Shown: positions 17,568-25,007 of the stretch, piece by piece
How positions within the stretch are numbered: the first letter of the stretch is position 1
How the letters are laid out: each line of letters starts with the position of its first letter
Origin: Pigmentiphaga kullae
GTDB taxonomy: Bacteria; Pseudomonadota; Gammaproteobacteria; Burkholderiales; Burkholderiaceae_B
Assembly: GCF_004216695.1 (NCBI RefSeq)
Contig: NZ_SGXC01000003.1
Span: 620,001 to 684,000, forward strand
Length of the DNA stretch: 64,000 nucleotides
Reading direction: 5' to 3'
Made by a program: the position numbers and the translations under genes
The notes under the pieces: model-generated
What the model was told of the DNA's origin: nothing
The model's database searches: none
Seen by the model: the letters and a program-made list of their open reading frames with translations, nothing else

Positions 17568-17722
17568 CCCCCTACGCCCTTCGGGCGCCCAGAATGGTGG
17601 GCCCCCAGCCGCTACGCGGCAGCCCCCCAAGGGGGCCGGGACCCGCCTTGGGGCGGCCCGGCGCCGGGTCCCCGGGGGGCGATGCGGGCGGACCGGCGGA
17701 GCCGGATCCACCGCATCCTGGG
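17568..17722 (+). repeat. Structured intergenic repeat, copy 1 (long form)
   Basis: Begins three bases after the greA stop. It has the family layout: a hairpin with a cTTCGg tetraloop (CGCCCTTCGGGCG), a C-run/G-run palindrome, and a long stem built on GCGGACCGGC / GCCGGATCCACC. It ends CCTGGG. The outer arms of the long stem are GATGCGG and CCGCATC. This copy carries about 70 extra bases of GC hairpins between the first and second elements, including CCGCTACGCGG. Other copies lie after ftsH and sixA. Confidence 0.8.
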
Positions 17723-17795
17723 CTTGAGGGGGTGGGGTTCTTTTGTCCTATTTTTGTCCTGATTCAATGTGTTGGTCTGCCCTGGAGGCTGATTG

Positions 17796-18221
17796 ATGGC
17801 TACGGTGGTGCGGCTGTTGGCGGCGCTGTGGTGTGGGGCGCTTTGGACGATCGGGCTGCTGGTGGTGCCGTTGTTGTTTTCGCAGCTCGAGCCCATGCGC
17901 GCGGCGGCGACGGCGGGGTCGTTGTTCCGGTTGCTGGCCTATGGCGGGCTGGTGGTGGCGTTGTCGATGCTGCTGCTGGACCGGTTGGGGCGCGGGTTGC
18001 CGCTGGGAGCGGCGGGGCGCCGCACCGTGCTGGTCATGGCCGTGGGAGTAGGGTTGGGGTATTTCGGCACCCGGCCCGTGATGGACTACGGGCGGGCCTT
18101 GATCGCCGCCGGCCAGGCCGTACCCGCCTGGGCGGATTTCGGGACCTGGCACGGGGTGTCGAGCGTGCTTTACTTCTTGGTGGCGGTTCTGGGTTTGCGG
18201 CTGGTGGCGGTCGTGCGTTGA
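17796..18221 (+). CDS. DUF4149 family membrane protein
   Basis: A 141-residue hydrophobic protein with four predicted membrane helices, including LLAALWCGALWTIGLLVVP, VALSMLLLDR and a C-terminal SVLYFLVAVLGLRLVAVV. This pattern fits the DUF4149 family, often found beside greA/yhbY in beta-proteobacteria. Its function is unknown. The ATG at 17796 has GGAGG upstream; a TTG three bases earlier is possible. Its 3' end overlaps the convergent yhbY-type gene by 52 bases. Confidence 0.8.
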   Translation: MATVVRLLAALWCGALWTIGLLVVPLLFSQLEPMRAAATAGSLFRLLAYGGLVVALSMLLLDRLGRGLPLGAAGRRTVLVMAVGVGLGYFGTRPVMDYGRALIAAGQAVPAWADFGTWHGVSSVLYFLVAVLGLRLVAVVR

Positions 18222-18919
18222 CCGCCCTCGGCCGGCCGGCTGCGGGCGCCGGCGCGCAGCGACAGCGCGCTGCCCGCCCGTTTTGCCGCCGGCTTGCCCG
18301 AGGCGGTCTTGCGGGCCGCGCCCAGCGTGGAGCCCAGGCCCGAGGGCCGGCGGGCCGGCGTGGTGCGCGCGGCGCCCCGGCGCGAACCGGTTTCCTCGTG
18401 GGTGGATGGCCGCTGGCGCTTGTCCGTGCCCAGGTAGCGTTCCCGGGCGGTCAGGGCGCCGTCGCCGCGCTCGGCGCGATCCTGGCGTTCCGCGCGGGTA
18501 CGGGCCGGCGCCGCGGGCTTGCCGGCCACCGCCAATTTCTTGGGCAGGTGGGCTTCGTTGGCCTTGCGCGCCCCGGTGCCCAGCGTGGACACGTCCGACT
18601 TGGGCTTGCGGGCGCCCAGCAGGCCGGCGGCATCGGGATCGCGCTCGGTCGGGCGGTACAGGATGAAGACCTTGCCCAGGTGATGGACGGGCGCGCAGGA
18701 AAGCTCGCCGCAGATCTGGTAGAGCAGTTCATCCCGCGTGGCGCGGTCTTCGCCGCCGGCGCGGACCTTGATCAGGCCGTGCGCCGAGAGGTTGCGGTCG
18801 ATTTCCTGCAGGACGGCTTCGCTCAGGCCCTTGTCGCCGATTAGGACGACCGGTTTGAGCGGGTGGGCAGCGGCCCGGAGGGCGCTGCGCAGTGTCGAAT
18901 TGATGTCTAGGACTGGCAT
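18170..18919 (-). CDS. yhbY: CRS1-YhbY (CRM) RNA-binding protein with long basic tail
   Basis: The first 97 or so residues form a CRM domain: an LRAAAHPLKPVVLIGDKGLS segment with the GxxG-type RNA-binding loop, then KVRAGGEDRATRDELL and GKVFILYRP. In Escherichia coli YhbY, of about this domain's length, associates with pre-50S ribosomal subunits. Here some 150 more residues of Arg/Lys/Ala/Thr-rich, low-complexity sequence follow, probably disordered and RNA-binding. The start is the ATG at 18919 (MPVLDINSTLRS). It is divergent from rlmE, another 50S-maturation gene, and overlaps the DUF4149 gene tail-to-tail. Confidence 0.9.
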   Translation of the reverse strand: MPVLDINSTLRSALRAAAHPLKPVVLIGDKGLSEAVLQEIDRNLSAHGLIKVRAGGEDRATRDELLYQICGELSCAPVHHLGKVFILYRPTERDPDAAGLLGARKPKSDVSTLGTGARKANEAHLPKKLAVAGKPAAPARTRAERQDRAERGDGALTARERYLGTDKRQRPSTHEETGSRRGAARTTPARRPSGLGSTLGAARKTASGKPAAKRAGSALSLRAGARSRPAEGGQRTTATSRKPRTATKK

Positions 18920-19063
18920 GGCGAGATTGTACGGGAGCCGGGCCGGCGGCGCGATGGCTCCTTTGGGTTTCGGGGGAGCGGGCCCTGGACCGCAGTATGC
19001 TCCGGATGGCGCGGCGATGCCGCATTGATTTGAATCGATACCGACCCGGATGACCGGGCAGAT

Positions 19064-19714
19064 ATGGCCAAGAACAAGTTTTCGAAGAACTGGTTGCACC
19101 AGCACATCAACGATCCCTACGTGAAGCTCGCGCAGCAGAAGGGATACCGGGCCCGGGCCGCCTTCAAGCTGACCGAGATCCTGGACACCGAGAAGCTCAT
19201 GCGGCCGGGCGACGTGGTCATCGACCTCGGTTCGGCGCCCGGCAGCTGGTCCCAGGTCGCCCGCGAGCGCCTGGCCGGTCCGCAGGGTACGATACGGGGA
19301 CGGATCATCGCGCTGGACCTGCTTCCCATGGAGCCGGTGGCCGGGGTGGAGTTCATCCAGGGCGATTTCCGCGAGGAAGAGGTGCTGCGCCAGCTCGAGG
19401 CCCTGCTGGGCAGCCAGCCGGTGGACCTTGTTATTTCGGACATGGCCCCCAATCTATCGGGGGTCGGTGCCGCGGACTCGGCGCGTATCCAGCATGTGTG
19501 CGATCTGGCACGGGAATTCTCGCAGGAGCATCTCAAGCCCGACGGGGCGCTGATCGTGAAGGCGTTTCACGGCAGCGGTTTTTCCCAGATCGTGCAGAGC
19601 TTCAAGCAGACTTTCCGCCGGGTGGTGGAACGCAAGCCCAAGGCGTCGCGGGACAAATCCTCCGAGACCTTTCTCGTGGGGGTGGGGCTGAAGAATCCCG
19701 GCGGCCGACAATAG
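19064..19714 (+). CDS. rlmE: 23S rRNA (uridine 2'-O) methyltransferase RlmE (FtsJ/RrmJ)
   Basis: Methylates U2552 of 23S rRNA in the 50S subunit using SAM. The 216-residue protein has N-terminal [20 protein letters not shown] with the first catalytic lysine, SAM motif [14 protein letters not shown], the DMAPNLSG motif with the catalytic aspartate, [10 protein letters not shown] with the second lysine, and the C-terminal glutamate near SSETFLVG. It starts at the ATG at 19064. ftsH follows about 80 bases on, the usual rlmE-ftsH pairing. Confidence 0.96.
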
Positions 19715-19792
19715 TAGAATCGGACTTAGTGTCCGATCGGGCCGGGTATTTCCGGCAGGTCGACCGATCGGCAATCAAGTAGGAGATCGACC

Positions 19793-21679
19793 TTGAACAA
19801 TATGTTCTCCAAAGTCGCGGTCTGGATGGTGATCGCATTCGTCCTGTTTACGGTCTTCAAGCAGTTCGAGGGCCGCACCCGTCCGCAGGACACCGTGTCC
19901 TACTCCCAGTTCATGGAAGAGGCCAAGGCCGGGCGCATCCAGAAAGTCGACATCCAGGGCGATGTGCTGAGCGTCACGCCTACCGACGGCCGTCCCTACA
20001 GCATCACGTCCCCCGGCGATCTCTGGCTGGTCAGCGACCTGATGAAGTACGGCGTCCAGGTGTCGGGCAAGGCCAAGGAAGAGCCCTCGCTCTTCATGAG
20101 CATCTTCGTTTCGTGGTTCCCGATGCTGCTGCTGATCGGCGTCTGGATATTCTTCATGCGCCAGATGCAGGGCGGCGGGCGCGGCGGCGCGTTCAACTTC
20201 GGCAAGTCGCGCGCGCGCATGCTGGACGAGAACTCCAACACGGTCACTTTCGCCGACGTCGCCGGCTGCGACGAGGCCAAGGAAGACGTCCAGGAACTGG
20301 TCGACTTCCTGCGCGACCCCTCGAAATTCCAGAAGCTGGGCGGCCGCATTCCGCGCGGCGTGCTGATGGTGGGCTCGCCGGGTACCGGCAAGACGCTGCT
20401 GGCGCGCGCCATCGCCGGCGAGGCCAAGGTGCCTTTCTTCAGCATCTCGGGTTCGGATTTCGTCGAAATGTTCGTCGGCGTGGGCGCGGCCCGCGTGCGC
20501 GACATGTTCGAGAACGCCAAGAAGCATGCCCCCTGCATCATCTTCATCGATGAAATCGACGCGGTCGGCCGCCAGCGCGGCGCCGGCCTGGGCGGCGGCA
20601 ACGACGAGCGCGAGCAGACCCTGAACCAGATGCTGGTGGAAATGGACGGCTTCGAGACCGGCCAGGGCATCATCGTGATCGCCGCCACCAACCGGCCCGA
20701 CGTGCTCGACCCGGCGCTGCTGCGCCCGGGCCGCTTCGACCGCCAGGTCGTGGTGCCGCTGCCCGACATCCGCGGCCGCGAGCAGATCCTGAAGGTCCAC
20801 ATGCGCAAGGTGCCGGTGTCGTCCGACGTCGACGCGACCATCCTGGCCCGCGGCACGCCGGGCTTCTCCGGCGCCGACCTGGCCAACCTGGTGAACGAGG
20901 CCGCGCTGTTCGCCGCTCGCCGCAACGGCCGCACGGTGGACATGCTGGATTTCGAGAAGGCCAAGGACAAGATCATCATGGGCGCCGAGCGCCGCTCCAT
21001 CGTCATGCCCGAGGAAGAGCGCCGCAACACCGCCTACCACGAGTCCGGCCACGCCATCGTCGCCAAGATGCTGCCCAAGACCGATCCGGTGCACAAGGTC
21101 ACGATCATCCCGCGCGGCCGCGCGCTGGGCGTGACCATGCAGTTGCCCGAGGGCGACCGCTACAGCATGGACAAGGACCGCATGCTGAACACCATCGCGG
21201 TGTTGTTCGGCGGCCGCATCGCCGAAGAGGTCTTCATGAACCAGATGACCACCGGCGCCTCGAACGACTTCGAGCGGGCGACCCAGATCGCGCGCGACAT
21301 GGTCACCCGCTACGGCATGACCGACTCGCTGGGCCCCATGGTCTATGCCGAGAACGAAGGCGAGGTGTTCCTGGGCCGCAGCATCACCAAGACGACCCAG
21401 GTCTCCGAGGCGACCATGCAGAAGGTCGACGGCGAGATCCGCCGCATCATCGACGAACAGTACGCGGTGGCGCGCAAGATCCTGGAGGACAACCGCGACA
21501 AGGTCGAGGTCATGACCCGCGCGCTGCTCGAATGGGAAACCATCGATGCCGACCAGATCAACGACATCATCGACGGACGTCCGCCGCGGCCGCCGAAGGC
21601 CTCGGATTCGGCCGGCGCGCCGCCCAACACGCCGCCCAGCACCGGCGGCGTCGCGCAGAACGCGACGGCCCCGGCGTAG
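19793..21679 (+). CDS. ftsH: ATP-dependent zinc metalloprotease FtsH
   Basis: Membrane-anchored AAA+ protease for membrane-protein quality control and turnover of regulators such as LpxC and sigma-32 (family knowledge). The 628-residue protein has an N-terminal TM helix ([15 protein letters not shown]), a periplasmic domain and a second TM near residue 110. It then has Walker A GSPGTGKT, Walker [12 protein letters not shown], the second region of homology with RPGRFDRQ, and the zinc site HESGH. The TTG at 19793 is the start, with AGGAG seven bases upstream. The C-terminal tail is Pro/Ala-rich. Confidence 0.97.
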
Positions 21680-21683
21680 GGGT

Positions 21684-21766
21684 ACCCCCCCCTACGCGCT
21701 TCGCGCGCCCCCCCCAGGGGGGCGGCACTGGCGGACCGGCGGAGCCGGATCCGCTGTGCCCTGGGG
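21684..21766 (+). repeat. Structured intergenic repeat, copy 2
   Basis: Begins about five bases after the ftsH stop. It keeps the family order: a hairpin with a TTCG loop whose stem is here CGCG-rich, a C-run/G-run palindrome, the long stem GCGGACCGGC / GCCGGATCCGC, then CCTGGG. The outer arms of the long stem are GGCAC and GTGCC, different from copy 1 but still paired. Confidence 0.8.
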
Positions 21767-21783
21767 GACCAACCGGCTGGTGG

Positions 21784-21814
21784 AGGGCGGCGTTTTGCCG
21801 CCCTTTGTTGTTTT
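21784..21814 (+). terminator. Intrinsic terminator between ftsH and folP
   Basis: AGGGCGGC (21784-21791) pairs with GCCGCCCT (21797-21804) around a GTTTT loop. TTGTTGTTTT follows. It lies after the repeat that follows ftsH and just before folP, so ftsH transcripts probably end here and folP may have reduced read-through. Confidence 0.7.
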
Positions 21815-21829
21815 ATGGCGTAAGCATGC

Positions 21830-22696
21830 ATGCAGGATTCCGTGCCAATTCATTCTGATACGCCGCCTCGGCTTCAGTGCGGTCGTTTTTCTCTTGAGTT
21901 TTCCCGGCCGCTGGTCATGGGGATCATCAACGTCACGCCGGATTCGTTTTCCGATGGAGGGAAGAATCTGGCGCTGGATGCGGGGATCGCGCATGCGCGG
22001 CAGTTGGTCGCGGAAGGGGCCGACATGCTGGATATCGGCGGCGAGTCGACGCGGCCGGGGGCGGCGCCGGTGGCGTTGGGGGACGAACTGGCCCGGTTGC
22101 TGCCGTTGATCGAGGCGCTGCGGGAGTGCGGGGTGCCGCTGTCGGTCGATACCTTCAAGCCGGCGGTGATGCGGGCGGTGCTGGACGCGGGCGCCGACAT
22201 GATCAACGACATCTACGGTTTCCGGCAGCCGGGCGCGATCGAGGCGGTGGCGCGAGGGGCGAGCGGCTTGTGCCTGATGCACATGCAGGGCGAGCCGCGC
22301 ACCATGCAGCAGGCGCCGGCCTACGGCGACGTGGTCGGCGAGGTGGCCGCTTTCCTGCGCGAGCATGCGCAGCGCCTGCTGGCGGCGGGGGTGGAGCGCG
22401 AGCGGATCTGCCTGGATCCGGGATTCGGCTTTGGCAAGACCACCGCCCACAATTACCAGCTCATGCGTAGTTTGCCCACTATCGGTGCGCTGGGATATCC
22501 GCTACTAATCGGGGTGTCCCGCAAGACCATGATCGGGGCGGTGACCGGCAAGCCCGTGGGGGAACGGGTGGCCGGCAGCGTCGCGGCGGCCCTGGCCGCG
22601 GTGGACCGGGGGGCGGCCATCGTCCGCGTCCACGACGTCGCGGCCACGGTGGACGCCCTGAAGGTCTGGCAAGCGGTACGGGCCTGGGACGAATGA
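21830..22696 (+). CDS. folP: Dihydropteroate synthase
   Basis: Condenses p-aminobenzoate with hydroxymethyl-dihydropterin pyrophosphate in folate synthesis; it is the sulfonamide target. The 288-residue TIM-barrel protein shows [25 protein letters not shown], the DPGFGFGKT loop and a C-terminal VRVHDV motif, all standard. It starts at the ATG at 21830. glmM follows 52 bases later on the same strand, the usual ftsH-folP-glmM order. Confidence 0.96.
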
Positions 22697-22748
22697 TGGC
22701 CGTGCGCTTTTCGCGCGGACAAGAACAACAAGCAGGGGGCCATCCACG

Positions 22749-24089
22749 ATGGTTGGACGACGCAAGTATTTCGGTACCGACGGCATTCGGGGCAAGGTCG
22801 GTTCAAAGGTCATCAACGCGGAATTCGCGCTGCGCCTGGGATATGCGGCGGGACGCGTCCTGACGGCGGAGCATCGCGACGGGGGGCGGCCGGTCGTCCT
22901 GATCGGGAAGGACACGCGCATCTCCGGCTACATGCTGGAATCGGCGCTCGAGGCGGGGCTGTCCGCGGCGGGCATCGACGTCCTCCTGGCCGGGCCCATG
23001 CCCACCCCGGCCATCGCCTACCTGACCCGGGCGCTGCGCCTGTCGGCCGGCATCGTGATCAGCGCTTCGCACAATCCCTATTTCGACAACGGCATCAAGT
23101 TCTTTTCGGCCACCGGCATGAAGCTGGCGGACGAGGTCGAACTGCGCATCGAGGCCGAACTGGGCGAGCCGGTCGGGTGCGTGTCGTCCGGCAAACTGGG
23201 CCGCGCCAAGCGCCTGACGGACGCGGCGGGCCGCTACATCGAGTTCTGCAAGAGCGGTTTCCCCAACGACCTCGACCTGGCCGACATGCGGCTGGTGATC
23301 GACGCCGCCCATGGCGCGGCCTACCACGTGGCGCCCGCGGTGTTCGAGGAACTGGGCGCCACCGTGAGCTGCATAGGCTGCGCGCCCAACGGGATGAACA
23401 TCAACGACGGCGTCGGCGCCACCCACCTGGACGCGCTGGCCGAGGCGGTGCAGGCGCAGAAGGCCGACCTGGGCATCGCGCTGGACGGCGATGCCGACCG
23501 CGTGCTGATGGTCGATGGCGACGGTAGGCGATACAACGGCGACGAGTTGCTGTATGCCATCGTGACGGATCGCCTGCTGGCCGGGCCGGTGGCGGGCGTG
23601 GTCGGTACGCAGATGACCAATCTTGCCTTCGAACACCGGATGCGCGACCTGGACGTGCCGTTCGCGCGGGCCGCCGTGGGCGACCGCTACGTGCTGGCGA
23701 TGCTGCGCAAGAAGGGCTGGCTGTACGGCGGCGAAAGTTCCGGCCATGTGTTGTGCCTGGATCGCCATACCACCGGGGACGGCACCATGGCCGCGCTCCA
23801 GGTGCTGGCGGCGATGCGCCGCCAGGGCAAGTCGCTGGCCGGGTTGCTGGAGCCGCTGCGGCTGTATCCTCAGAAGCTGGTCAACGTGCCGCTTGCGCCG
23901 GGCGTGGACTGGCACGGGCATGCCGGCCTGGCCCAGGCCAGGGAAGAGGTCGAACGGCGGCTGGATGGGCAGGGGCGGGTGCTGATCCGCGCCTCGGGCA
24001 CCGAGCCCAAGCTGCGCCTGATGGTCGAGGCGGCCGACGAAGCGCTGGTCGACGACTGCCTGGCCCTCCTGTCCGCCAGCCTGGCCTAG
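22749..24089 (+). CDS. glmM: Phosphoglucosamine mutase
   Basis: Converts glucosamine-6-phosphate to glucosamine-1-phosphate for UDP-GlcNAc and so for peptidoglycan and lipopolysaccharide. The 446-residue protein starts [18 protein letters not shown]. It has the active-site serine in [14 protein letters not shown], the magnesium loop DGDADR, the GESSGH sugar-binding motif and the phosphate-binding [12 protein letters not shown] near the C-terminus. Length and motifs are complete, so it should be active. Confidence 0.97.
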
Positions 24090-24156
24090 CTTCGGCGGCG
24101 CCGCGACCCTGTCAAGCCCCAGTCATGCCCCGCGGGCACAATCGGGAACTTCGATT

Positions 24157-24630
24157 ATGACCATGCAAGCATCGTCCATGAACCTGATTCTCTGGCGCCA
24201 CGCCGAGGCCGAGGACGGCCCGAACGACCTGCAGCGCGCCCTGACGCGGCGCGGGCACAAGCAGGCCGAGGCCGTCGCCGCGTGGCTCCGGGCCCATGCT
24301 CCGTCCGACCTGATGGTCATGGCCAGCCCCGCGGTGCGCACGCGCCAGACCGCCGATGCGCTGGGCTGCGACTACACCGTCGTGCCCGAATTGGCACCCG
24401 AGGCCTCGCCGGCCCATGTACTGGCCGCCACCGGCTGGCCCCTGTCGCCGCGCTCGGTCCTGGTCGTGGGCCACCAGCCCACGCTGGGCCGCGTGGCCAG
24501 CACCCTGCTGGCCGGCGACGACCTGCCCTGGAGCCTGAAGAAGGGCGGCCTGTGGTGGCTGGCCCGCCGCCAGCGCGACGAAGACTTCCAGGTCGTGATC
24601 CGCGCCGTCATCAATCCCGAGTTTGTCTAG
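24157..24630 (+). CDS. sixA: SixA-like phosphohistidine phosphatase
   Basis: A 157-residue histidine phosphatase of the SixA branch. In E. coli SixA dephosphorylates phosphohistidine signalling proteins. The N-terminal LILWRHAEAEDG has the catalytic Arg-His pair, RTRQTADAL holds the second phosphate-binding arginine, and VVGHQPTL carries the second histidine. The first ATG (24157) is used; MNLILWRHAEA at 24178 is an equally plausible start because family members commonly begin there. A repeat cluster starts directly after the stop. Confidence 0.88.
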   Translation: MTMQASSMNLILWRHAEAEDGPNDLQRALTRRGHKQAEAVAAWLRAHAPSDLMVMASPAVRTRQTADALGCDYTVVPELAPEASPAHVLAATGWPLSPRSVLVVGHQPTLGRVASTLLAGDDLPWSLKKGGLWWLARRQRDEDFQVVIRAVINPEFV

Positions 24631-24633
24631 GGG

Positions 24634-24718
24634 GAAGCCCACCCCCTACGCCCTTCGGGCGCCCCCTCGAGGGGGCGAAACCCGCGGACCGGCAAAGCCG
24701 GATCCGCGGTTTCCTGGG
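24634..24718 (+). repeat. Structured intergenic repeat, copy 3
   Basis: Follows the sixA stop. A complete unit of the family: GAAGCCCACCCCC lead, hairpin CGCCCTTCGGGCG, palindrome CCCCCTCGAGGGGG, and a long stem whose outer arms are GAAACC and GGTTTC around GCGGACCGGC / GCCGGATCCGC, then CCTGGG. It forms the left part of a 320-base palindrome-rich block before olsB. Confidence 0.8.
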
Positions 24719-24748
24719 TCTAGGGGAAGTATCTTGGACTGAAGCAAG

Positions 24749-24779
24749 GGTGCTACCGCTGGCAGCCAGCGATAGCACC
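24749..24779. repeat. Long near-perfect hairpin between repeat copies
   Basis: GGTGCTA and CGCTGG (24749-24762, with one unpaired C between them) pair with CCAGCG and TAGCACC (24766-24779, with one A between them) around a three-base loop. That gives 13 pairs and one mismatch. It sits between the forward copy 3 and the inverted copies 4 and 5. It is not followed by a T-run. Confidence 0.6.
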
Positions 24780-24808
24780 GGTGCCGCCCCCAAGAAGCAG
24801 GTACTAGG

Positions 24809-24897
24809 CCCAGGATGCGGTGGATCCGGCTCCGCCGGTCCACCCGCATCGCCCCCTTGAGGGGGAGCGGCCAAAGGCCGCTCGGGGGTGGGCTTCC
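24809..24897 (-). repeat. Structured intergenic repeat, copy 4 (inverted)
   Basis: A full unit in the opposite orientation to copy 3, from CCCAGG at 24809 to GGCTTCC at 24897. Read on the minus strand, its first hairpin is GAGCGGCC-TTT-GGCCGCTC, quite different from the TTCG hairpins but still paired. The outer arms of its long stem are GATGCGG and CCGCATC, as in copy 1. Confidence 0.8.
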
Positions 24898-24953
24898 CTG
24901 CCGGTCCGCCGGTTTCGCCCCCTGGGGGGCGCCCGAAGGGCGTAGGGGGGGGC
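24898..24953 (-). repeat. Structured intergenic repeat, copy 5 (inverted, partial)
   Basis: Abuts copy 4. It holds the TTCG hairpin, the C-run/G-run palindrome and the GCGGACCGGC half of the long stem, but lacks the second half and the CCTGGG end. It is the inverted complement of the first half of copy 3, so the two could also pair with each other over about 50 bases. Confidence 0.75.
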
Positions 24954-25007
24954 CTTTTCGTAAGCATGCGTTTCCGGCGGCCCACGGGTATTGTTTGATT
25001 CATGGTA

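Follow-up and report, generated by a model that had tools for sequence, protein, structure and literature searches.

The closest published families that we found to the dispersed three-hairpin DNA repeat described here, which we encountered in a 64,000-nucleotide stretch of the Pigmentiphaga kullae genome (the window: bases 620001-684000 of contig 3; genome size 6.22 Mb), are the Bor repeats of the Bordetellae and Bor-1. As far as the available portions of these sources go, Bor repeats are 26-30 bp stem-loops whose consensus includes N and R (Petrillo 2006, PMC1590033), and Bor-1 is typed as intergenic in a table whose entries, 117 / 196(92) for B. bronchiseptica and 93 / 128(78) for B. pertussis, we take as length and member counts (Cozzuto 2008, PMC2267715). 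A later survey, in the part available, places untagged REP-like repeats in Bordetellae among those awaiting investigation (PMC3733652). The REP, BIME and REPIN elements of E. coli and Pseudomonas are described in the same survey and in a study of REPINs as high-copy extragenic palindromes that lie 3' of genes and form inverted pairs with preferred spacing, all of which holds for the present repeat (PMC3733652, PMC3116915); the accounts available add that GTAG REPs often provide a TAG stop codon to flanking open reading frames (ORFs) (PMC3733652, PMC3116915), and that Pseudomonas REPINs show compensatory changes (PMC3116915). In a literature search that had most subscription papers outside its coverage, we found no account of the present repeat in Pigmentiphaga or Achromobacter. 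Its distinguishing property is an anchoring to stop codons in gene orientation.

Architecture, copy number and distribution

The unit is approximately 80 nt long and, in copies read directly, runs from a C-run through hairpin 1 (five pairs, with a 3- or 4-nt loop), a C/G palindrome and a long bulged stem to, usually, CCTGGG. The inner part of the long stem is GGACCGGC-NNN-GCCGGATCC, with a bulged A, the outer arms vary by class (GATGCGG/CCGCATC, GGCAC/GTGCC and GAAACC/GGTTTC in the window copies), and the repeat core is GGACCGGCRRAGCCGGATCC. A preliminary description of the window had proposed five copies with one shared order of parts; this order, with the arms it gave, holds for three full copies (B, C and D in Table 1), while copy A has an extra module between hairpin 1 and the long stem and copy E is truncated. 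The conserved inner stem that it named is borne out by exact matches at 17690, 21733 and 24686 on the forward strand and 24822 on the reverse strand, and the first-hairpin pattern, for which 0.01 matches are expected in the window by chance at up to 3 mismatches, has exact matches at 17568, 21688 and 24642 (+) and 24928 (-).

Taken alone, the count of inner stems in the window is weak evidence, with 4 matches at up to 3 mismatches against 1.43 expected and 4 of 100 shuffles reaching 4, and the question is settled by the genome scan. At up to 2 mismatches the inner-stem pattern has 237 matches in the whole genome (114 + 123) compared with 11 (7 + 4) in a reversed control, and a covariance model built from 38 own-genome copies (R1) finds at least 150 matches, the weakest among those listed having an E-value of 6.1e-12. 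The repeat is thus genuine and extends far beyond the window, and the model scan that the preliminary description had suggested recovers many copies. In Rfam, the window has only two tRNAs above threshold and the repeat matches no family; a relaxed search of 24600-25000 gives 7 matches, all under their gathering scores. The three complete simple copies fold with energies of -51.8 to -61.0 kcal/mol (z -2.9 to -4.0).

The distribution among relatives is patchy. R1 has matches in nine of the ten other same-genus genomes, six of them with at least 114, and a pattern scan of 268 genomes of the family at 1 mismatch finds 175-260 matches in seven of the eleven same-genus genomes (own included) and 14, 10, 2 and 0 in the other four. 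The genome without any copy by R1 or pattern (G010) is 6.2 Mb in size, and its contrast with copy-rich relatives having up to 260 pattern matches is useful for finding a mobiliser. Across the family scan 85 of 268 genomes have a match, many of them at or below the level of the reversed control. When R1 was applied to 21 named genomes there were matches in 11: both Pigmentiphaga (at least 150 each), B. ansorpii (6), six Achromobacter (3-23), Albitalea (13) and Leptothrix (18); it had none in B. hinzii, B. genomosp. 1 and 7, Neopusillimonas, Advenella, Alcaligenes, Candidimonas, Oligella, Corticimicrobacter and Thiomonas. The ftsH copy has partial matches (46-75% of its length) in eight plasmid records, from Variovorax (two), Methylibium, Mitsuaria, Comamonas, Burkholderia, Achromobacter and Nonomuraea, the last being odd among the hosts listed, and the phage records searched contain no match. 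Many copies in genomes of genus g4 and at Achromobacter loci carry GCCGGCTCC instead of GCCGGATCC, with C for the bulged A, and possibly form a subfamily.

Pairing kept through change and turnover between relatives

The stems remain paired while their sequences change, as the preliminary description had proposed. Among the 38 own-genome copies 98.6% of cells are paired and double changes occur at 9 of 25 pairs, with a covariation score of 0.257 compared with 0.095 when shuffled and at most 0.068 when slid; these copies were selected by the inner stem, so that the inner pairs are biased to invariance and the outer arms are unbiased. A cross-genus set of 31 copies, 28 of them from other genomes and 25 of these from outside the genus, is 97.2% paired and has double changes at 16 of 26 pairs, the combinations being many. 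Its covariation score is 0.313, compared with 0.102 after shuffling and no more than 0.077 after sliding, a strong signal in the covariation test that had been called for. RNAalifold returns the same three helices (25 pairs) without an input structure, and in a mutual information (MI) ranking with redundancy weights the first six column pairs all belong to the structure (five to the long stem, one to hairpin 1). Hairpin 1 was found in only 242 of the 343 copies extracted for this ranking, with its register shifted in many, which makes hairpin-1 MI unreliable; the covariation of hairpin 1 rests instead on the 38-copy and 31-copy alignments. At least 14 of the 16 long-stem pairs are kept in 194 of 201 own copies, counted with a best-register filter in place of a less strict search for the core, which allowed up to 5 mismatches and caught off-register palindrome matches. 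The C/G palindrome is nearly invariant and is evidence neither for nor against selection on pairing.

Folds often close the unit by a helix between the 5' C-run and the 3' TGGG (149 of 200 copies folded, of 239 extracted). We considered this CCTGGG closing helix as a further conserved helix and rejected it: swapping the 3' tails among copies gave a duplex energy of -7.54 compared with -7.50 observed, and 125 of 200 permutations were as low or lower.

We compared sites in synteny with two relatives, Pigmentiphaga sp. NML030171 (mostly 89-96% identical) and NML080357 (78-94%), whose folP sequences are the nearest named matches (94% and 92%, respectively), and these findings rest on the site rows listed. 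The sixA-like site is occupied in two genomes and empty directly after the TAG in NML080357; at this one clean empty site among those listed a target-site duplication is not evident. The interior of the pair at the same site appears inverted between P. kullae and NML030171, with the GAAACC and GATGCGG stems exchanged. The ftsH copy belongs to the GGCAC class in P. kullae and to the GATGCG class in NML080357, the copy at C3:721764 is of the GAAACC class in P. kullae and of the GGCACT class in NML030171, and in NML080357 the C3:750279 copy differs by a double change, C-G to T-A. Near C3:711500, at a site that we take to be argF-like, both relatives have pairs where P. kullae has no more than a remnant. 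A tandem repeat of a T-run plus GC-rich unit (GCATATTTTTTGCCGCCGGGCCGCCCCCAAGGCAAAAAGCGCCCCC...) lies 3' of one element on contig 3 near 750350 (L326) and in NML030171 (G041:C57), with approximately four units in NML030171 and fewer in P. kullae.

Because arms switch class as blocks at shared sites, co-change within one genome is partly block replacement of stems; with this caution for the single genome, the earlier proposal that pairing is kept through change is supported both within the genome and across genera. It is nonetheless quite unlikely that the within-genome co-variation reflects nothing but whole-stem replacement between subfamilies, or palindrome repair, without selection on pairing. 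Block switching and the apparently inverted pair interior are what such a process would leave, but it does not account for the double changes across genera, for the many combinations in which they occur or for the retention of long-stem pairs in nearly all own copies, and the closing helix, which is equally foldable, has no such signal.

Position relative to stop codons and the copies in the window

Gene ends were called by an open-frame plus GC3-GC2 rule without annotation, except for three annotated plasmid cases. On the same strand, 121 of 201 own copies have a coding-like stop no more than 80 nt 5' of the core; the first CCC follows the stop within 9 nt in 102 of these (with no gap in 32) and later in 7. 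In the other 12 the upstream frame runs into the element and stops at a TGA there, in the hairpin-1 loop in those listed, and the repeat itself supplies the stop codon. In the opposite direction the distances spread broadly with a bump at 180-189 nt, which we put down to paired copies. Stop-codon adjacency is therefore much stronger genome-wide than could be seen in the window, where the preliminary description had placed the starts of copies three to five bases after the stops of greA, ftsH and sixA; there too the adjacency stands, with gaps that differ from those given (Table 1).

Orientation was examined using the flanks, which were usable for 184 of 198 own copies, 27 of these being removed as a heuristic ORF spanned the copy. 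Single copies in gaps between co-directional genes lie in gene orientation in 49 cases and against it in 11 (p = 8e-7), and 40 of the 49 sense copies are within 9 nt of the stop compared with 12.8 expected under uniform placement (p = 7e-16). In convergent gaps 16 of 27 single copies are that close (3.9 expected), and only 5 of 92 single copies are in divergent gaps. The stops next to elements are TAG, TGA and TAA in 46, 38 and 25 cases against a background of 129, 215 and 44 (p = 0.0002), TAG and TAA being raised, and no simple target motif near the elements was found by eye. The same position recurs elsewhere: among 31 other loci, one of which lacks the core, a stop is located 30-84 nt 5' of the core in 24 of the remaining 30 (three same-genus, four from other genera of the family and the rest from named genomes, a few being near-identical copies from one contig). 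On annotated plasmids the distance from the annotated stop to the start of the C-run is 0 nt in Mitsuaria (ahpF), 4 nt in Variovorax and 3 nt in A. pestifer, and a fourth region viewed, in Methylibium, lies inside an annotated transposase coding sequence.

Many units are paired. A tail-to-tail partner is present within 330 nt for 75 of 198 own copies, with spacings of 110-119 nt (37), 70-79 nt (17), 130-139 nt (12) and others (9), and only one copy has a head-to-head partner. The next gene is on the opposite or the same strand for 25 and 15 paired units and for 23 and 57 singles, respectively (p = 0.0007).

This enrichment of pairs before opposite-strand genes, together with the stem-loops themselves, is what could be expected if the elements were transcription terminators, alone or bidirectionally between convergent genes, and a terminator was among the roles first suggested. 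However, a T-rich stretch 3' of the stem is present in only 5 of 198 copies and separate terminator-like hairpins lie downstream, as after ftsH; the repeat is not an intrinsic terminator, and a terminator role of any kind seems to us very improbable. Intrinsic-terminator-like hairpins occur within 160 nt downstream of 22 of 81 single stop-adjacent copies compared with 3 of 81 shuffled. The one 3' of the ftsH copy has a similar counterpart in both relatives, and since it sits downstream, copy B would be inside the ftsH 3' untranslated region.

A related explanation is that the hairpins are a trimming barrier, setting the stable mRNA 3' ends of Rho-terminated transcripts after exonuclease trimming. 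The very stable folds, the position just past stops and the absence of a T-rich stretch in 193 of 198 copies are consistent with it, but such a barrier would be redundant at the 22 of 81 copies that are followed by a terminator-like hairpin, and we regard it as possible but doubtful. Putative 3'-end protection or a binding-site role, both of which had also been suggested for the window copies, is possible.

Table 1. Repeat copies and associated features in the window (coordinates from the first base of the window)
Feature	Coordinates	Strand	Remarks
Copy A	17568-17722	+	C-run 2 nt 3' of greA stop; partial R1 match 17657-17725
Copy A, hairpin 1 and C-run	17568-17589	+	
Copy A, GC-rich module	~17590-17674	+	
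Copy A, long stem	17681-17717	+	GATGCGG/CCGCATC; then CCTGGG
Copy B	21684-21766	+	C-run 5 nt 3' of ftsH stop; R1 83.3 bits; hairpin 1, C/G palindrome, long stem, CCTGGG
Copy B, long stem	21724-21760	+	GGCAC/GTGCC
Intrinsic-terminator-like hairpin, separate	21785-21809	+	GGGCGGC..GCCGCCC then TTTGTT; 3' of copy B; read from sequence
Copy C	24631-24718	+	Leader GGGGAAGCCCA right at sixA-like stop, first CCC 7 nt after it; R1 95.4 bits; leader, hairpin 1, palindrome, long stem, CCTGGG
Copy C, long stem	24677-24713	+	GAAACC/GGTTTC
Spacer of tail-to-tail pair C/D	24719-24804	.	TCTAG...TCTTGG... from C side, similar from D side
Copy D, inverted partner	24805-24897	-	R1 79.5 bits; hairpin 1 GAGCGGCC/GGCCGCTC
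Copy D, long stem	24814-24850	-	GATGCGG/CCGCATC
Copy E, truncated	24898-24953	-	R1 36.8 bits; hairpin 1, palindrome and 5' half of long stem (...GGACCGGC); without 3' arm and CCTGGG

The genes that precede the window copies have Pfam support as greA (GreA_GreB), ftsH (FtsH_ext and Peptidase_M41) and a sixA-like phosphatase (His_Phos_1). The GC-rich module of copy A (CCGCTACGCGGCAGCCCCCC...CGGGACCCGCC..CCGGGTCCC) stands, in a minority of copies, in place of the usual first part or ahead of it, and a 20-nt piece of the module is found at 27 places in the genome. Half and full elements are linked by a junction of the form GGACCGG|(A)AGGGAAGCCCACCCC at window ~24890-24910 and at L008, L022, L032, L057, L064, L066, L073, L078 and L079; because this junction recurs at many sites, the dimeric composite of half and full element seems to have spread as one unit.

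Possible roles and comparison with known systems

We interpret the repeat as a REP/BIME-like modular non-coding family of Burkholderiales whose sense copies may act as stop-proximal mRNA structure, and for this interpretation as a whole we see about an even chance. Units, single or as tail-to-tail inverted pairs, would originate from insertions, and conversion, inversion and deletion would account for their turnover. A sense unit right after a stop codon would be transcribed together with its gene, and its most likely role there would be that of a structure met at once by the terminating ribosome. Such a structure would be an obstacle to re-initiation and to read-on into the gene that follows, and would also block 3'-to-5' exonucleases upstream of any real terminator.

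Selection on RNA of the gene strand is favoured by a wobble asymmetry, which is suggestive only. When copies with at least 11 of 16 pairs are taken from five Pigmentiphaga genomes (own, G003, G007, G041 and G042), the imperfect long-stem pairs are G.U in 17 and A.C in 6 cases in stop-adjacent copies, and 10 and 17, respectively, in others (Fisher p = 0.012). Copies with fewer than 11 pairs were dropped from the wobble counts (11 of 291 in one count, 13 of 356 in the other), as was pair 46-72, which is T.T or T.G in common classes. The inverted partners (54) have A.C 6 and G.U 1 in their own orientation, which equals G.U 6 and A.C 1 on their partner's strand. Such a gene-strand asymmetry is a cheap test, applicable to any repeat family, of selection on RNA as opposed to DNA hairpins.

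Several observations weigh against a role as stop-proximal mRNA structure. Over all genomes the wobble contrast weakens, with p-values of 0.083 (at least 11 pairs), 0.14 (unfiltered) and 0.048 (at least 13 pairs), and the stronger contrast obtained by combining stop-adjacent copies with the inverted partners (23 vs 7, p = 0.005) is a count of small numbers made after the first result had been seen; transcription-linked C-to-T mutation could also cause a G.U excess. Pairing is imperfect, since 58 of 293 copies have T.T at pair 46-72 and the outer 3' arm has been lost from the ftsH copy in NML030171, and the closing helix with CCTGGG folds and has no covariation. Eleven co-directional singles are in antisense, and 5 of these lie within 9 nt of the neighbour's gene-start edge compared with 1.4 expected (p = 0.009), with start calls that are uncertain. 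Neither stop adjacency nor a tail-to-tail partner applies to 42 of 198 own copies. All of the evidence is DNA sequence, and the position could stem from insertion targeting and not from function.

A different explanation is a purely selfish mobile palindrome whose insertion prefers, or whose copies survive only at, post-stop DNA, and whose arms are kept for an enzyme's DNA hairpins with no gain to the host. The high copy number, the patchy presence (0 to 260 pattern matches in 11 same-genus genomes), the quantised spacing of tail-to-tail pairs, the empty sites and the class replacement are all consistent with this, and Pseudomonas REPINs likewise have compensatory changes and preferred spacing in the part of that account available (PMC3116915). 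On the other hand, neither the sense bias (49 vs 11) nor the gene-strand G.U asymmetry is expected of a DNA-only requirement. The REP-associated transposase for which a search had been advised did not appear: the genome has no Y1_Tnp (RAYT; PF01797) gene, in a search confined to that family of mobilisers. The domain is absent from ten of the eleven same-genus genomes, including all seven that are copy-rich, and the eleventh, with only 2 pattern matches of the repeat, has a short match (31 of 121 positions). We consider a purely selfish element a tenable but rather unlikely explanation.

Most Pigmentiphaga copies viewed by eye have CTAC (GTAG on the other strand) 5' of hairpin 1, and many Achromobacter copies have CGAA, CGAG or CGGA in its place. 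A GTAG or CGTC tag at the foot of the hairpin is a mark of REP and REPIN elements with a RAYT, and the CTAC presumably stands at the foot opposite to that of the tag in E. coli REPs.

A bolder proposal, which we advance only as a speculation with the odds well against it, is that the repeat is a mobile stop-codon insulator. In this view a non-RAYT mechanism, sensing the stop codon or coupled to it, has spread a transposable RNA structure through Burkholderiales, and the structure is retained because it serves the host as a ready ribosome-termination and 3'-end structure. If true, an insertion would give a gene new 3' regulation and, with 12 of the 201 copies, even its stop codon. Whether REP-like repeats are parasites or working mRNA parts is a long-standing disagreement, and the family offers a natural replicate set for it, with approximately 200 closely similar structures, singles as well as pairs, of which about half are fixed at almost one and the same distance from a stop codon, and with such families in 7 of 11 related genomes (own included). 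Occupied and empty versions of the same gene in close relatives make the question testable gene by gene.

The family is probably kin to the Bor repeats, a comparison made by description and not by consensus sequence. Like Bor and Bor-1, as their available descriptions have them, it consists of stem-loop repeats in Alcaligenaceae near coding regions; the fixed module order, stop anchoring and covariation of the present repeat do not figure in those descriptions. The Bordetella genomes searched with R1, which do not include B. bronchiseptica and B. pertussis, yielded 6 matches in B. ansorpii and none in B. hinzii, genomosp. 1 or genomosp. 7. Compared with REPs, the present unit is an 80-nt three-hairpin structure as opposed to a 20-40 bp palindrome, and its genome has no member of the RAYT family.

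The idea of a stop-proximal structure has precedent, because of both the ribosome termination structure (RTS) and E. coli REPs near stop codons. The RTS, in the part of its account available, is a stable mRNA structure directly 3' of stops that is proposed to hinder re-initiation (Chemla 2020, PMC7518266), and here too a stable structure starts directly after the stop codon; the RTS is presented there as a generic folding signal with no repeat family mentioned, whereas in this case the structure would come from a dispersed repeat. A down-regulation of translation is reported for E. coli REPs that lie no more than 15 nt from the stop codon (ref. 17 as cited in PMC12306157, available in part). 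These REPs share with the present repeat a hairpin near the stop, the present copies being tighter, mostly at 0-9 nt among those that are stop-adjacent. The family is best filed as a new REP-like variant, set apart by its stop anchoring in gene orientation.

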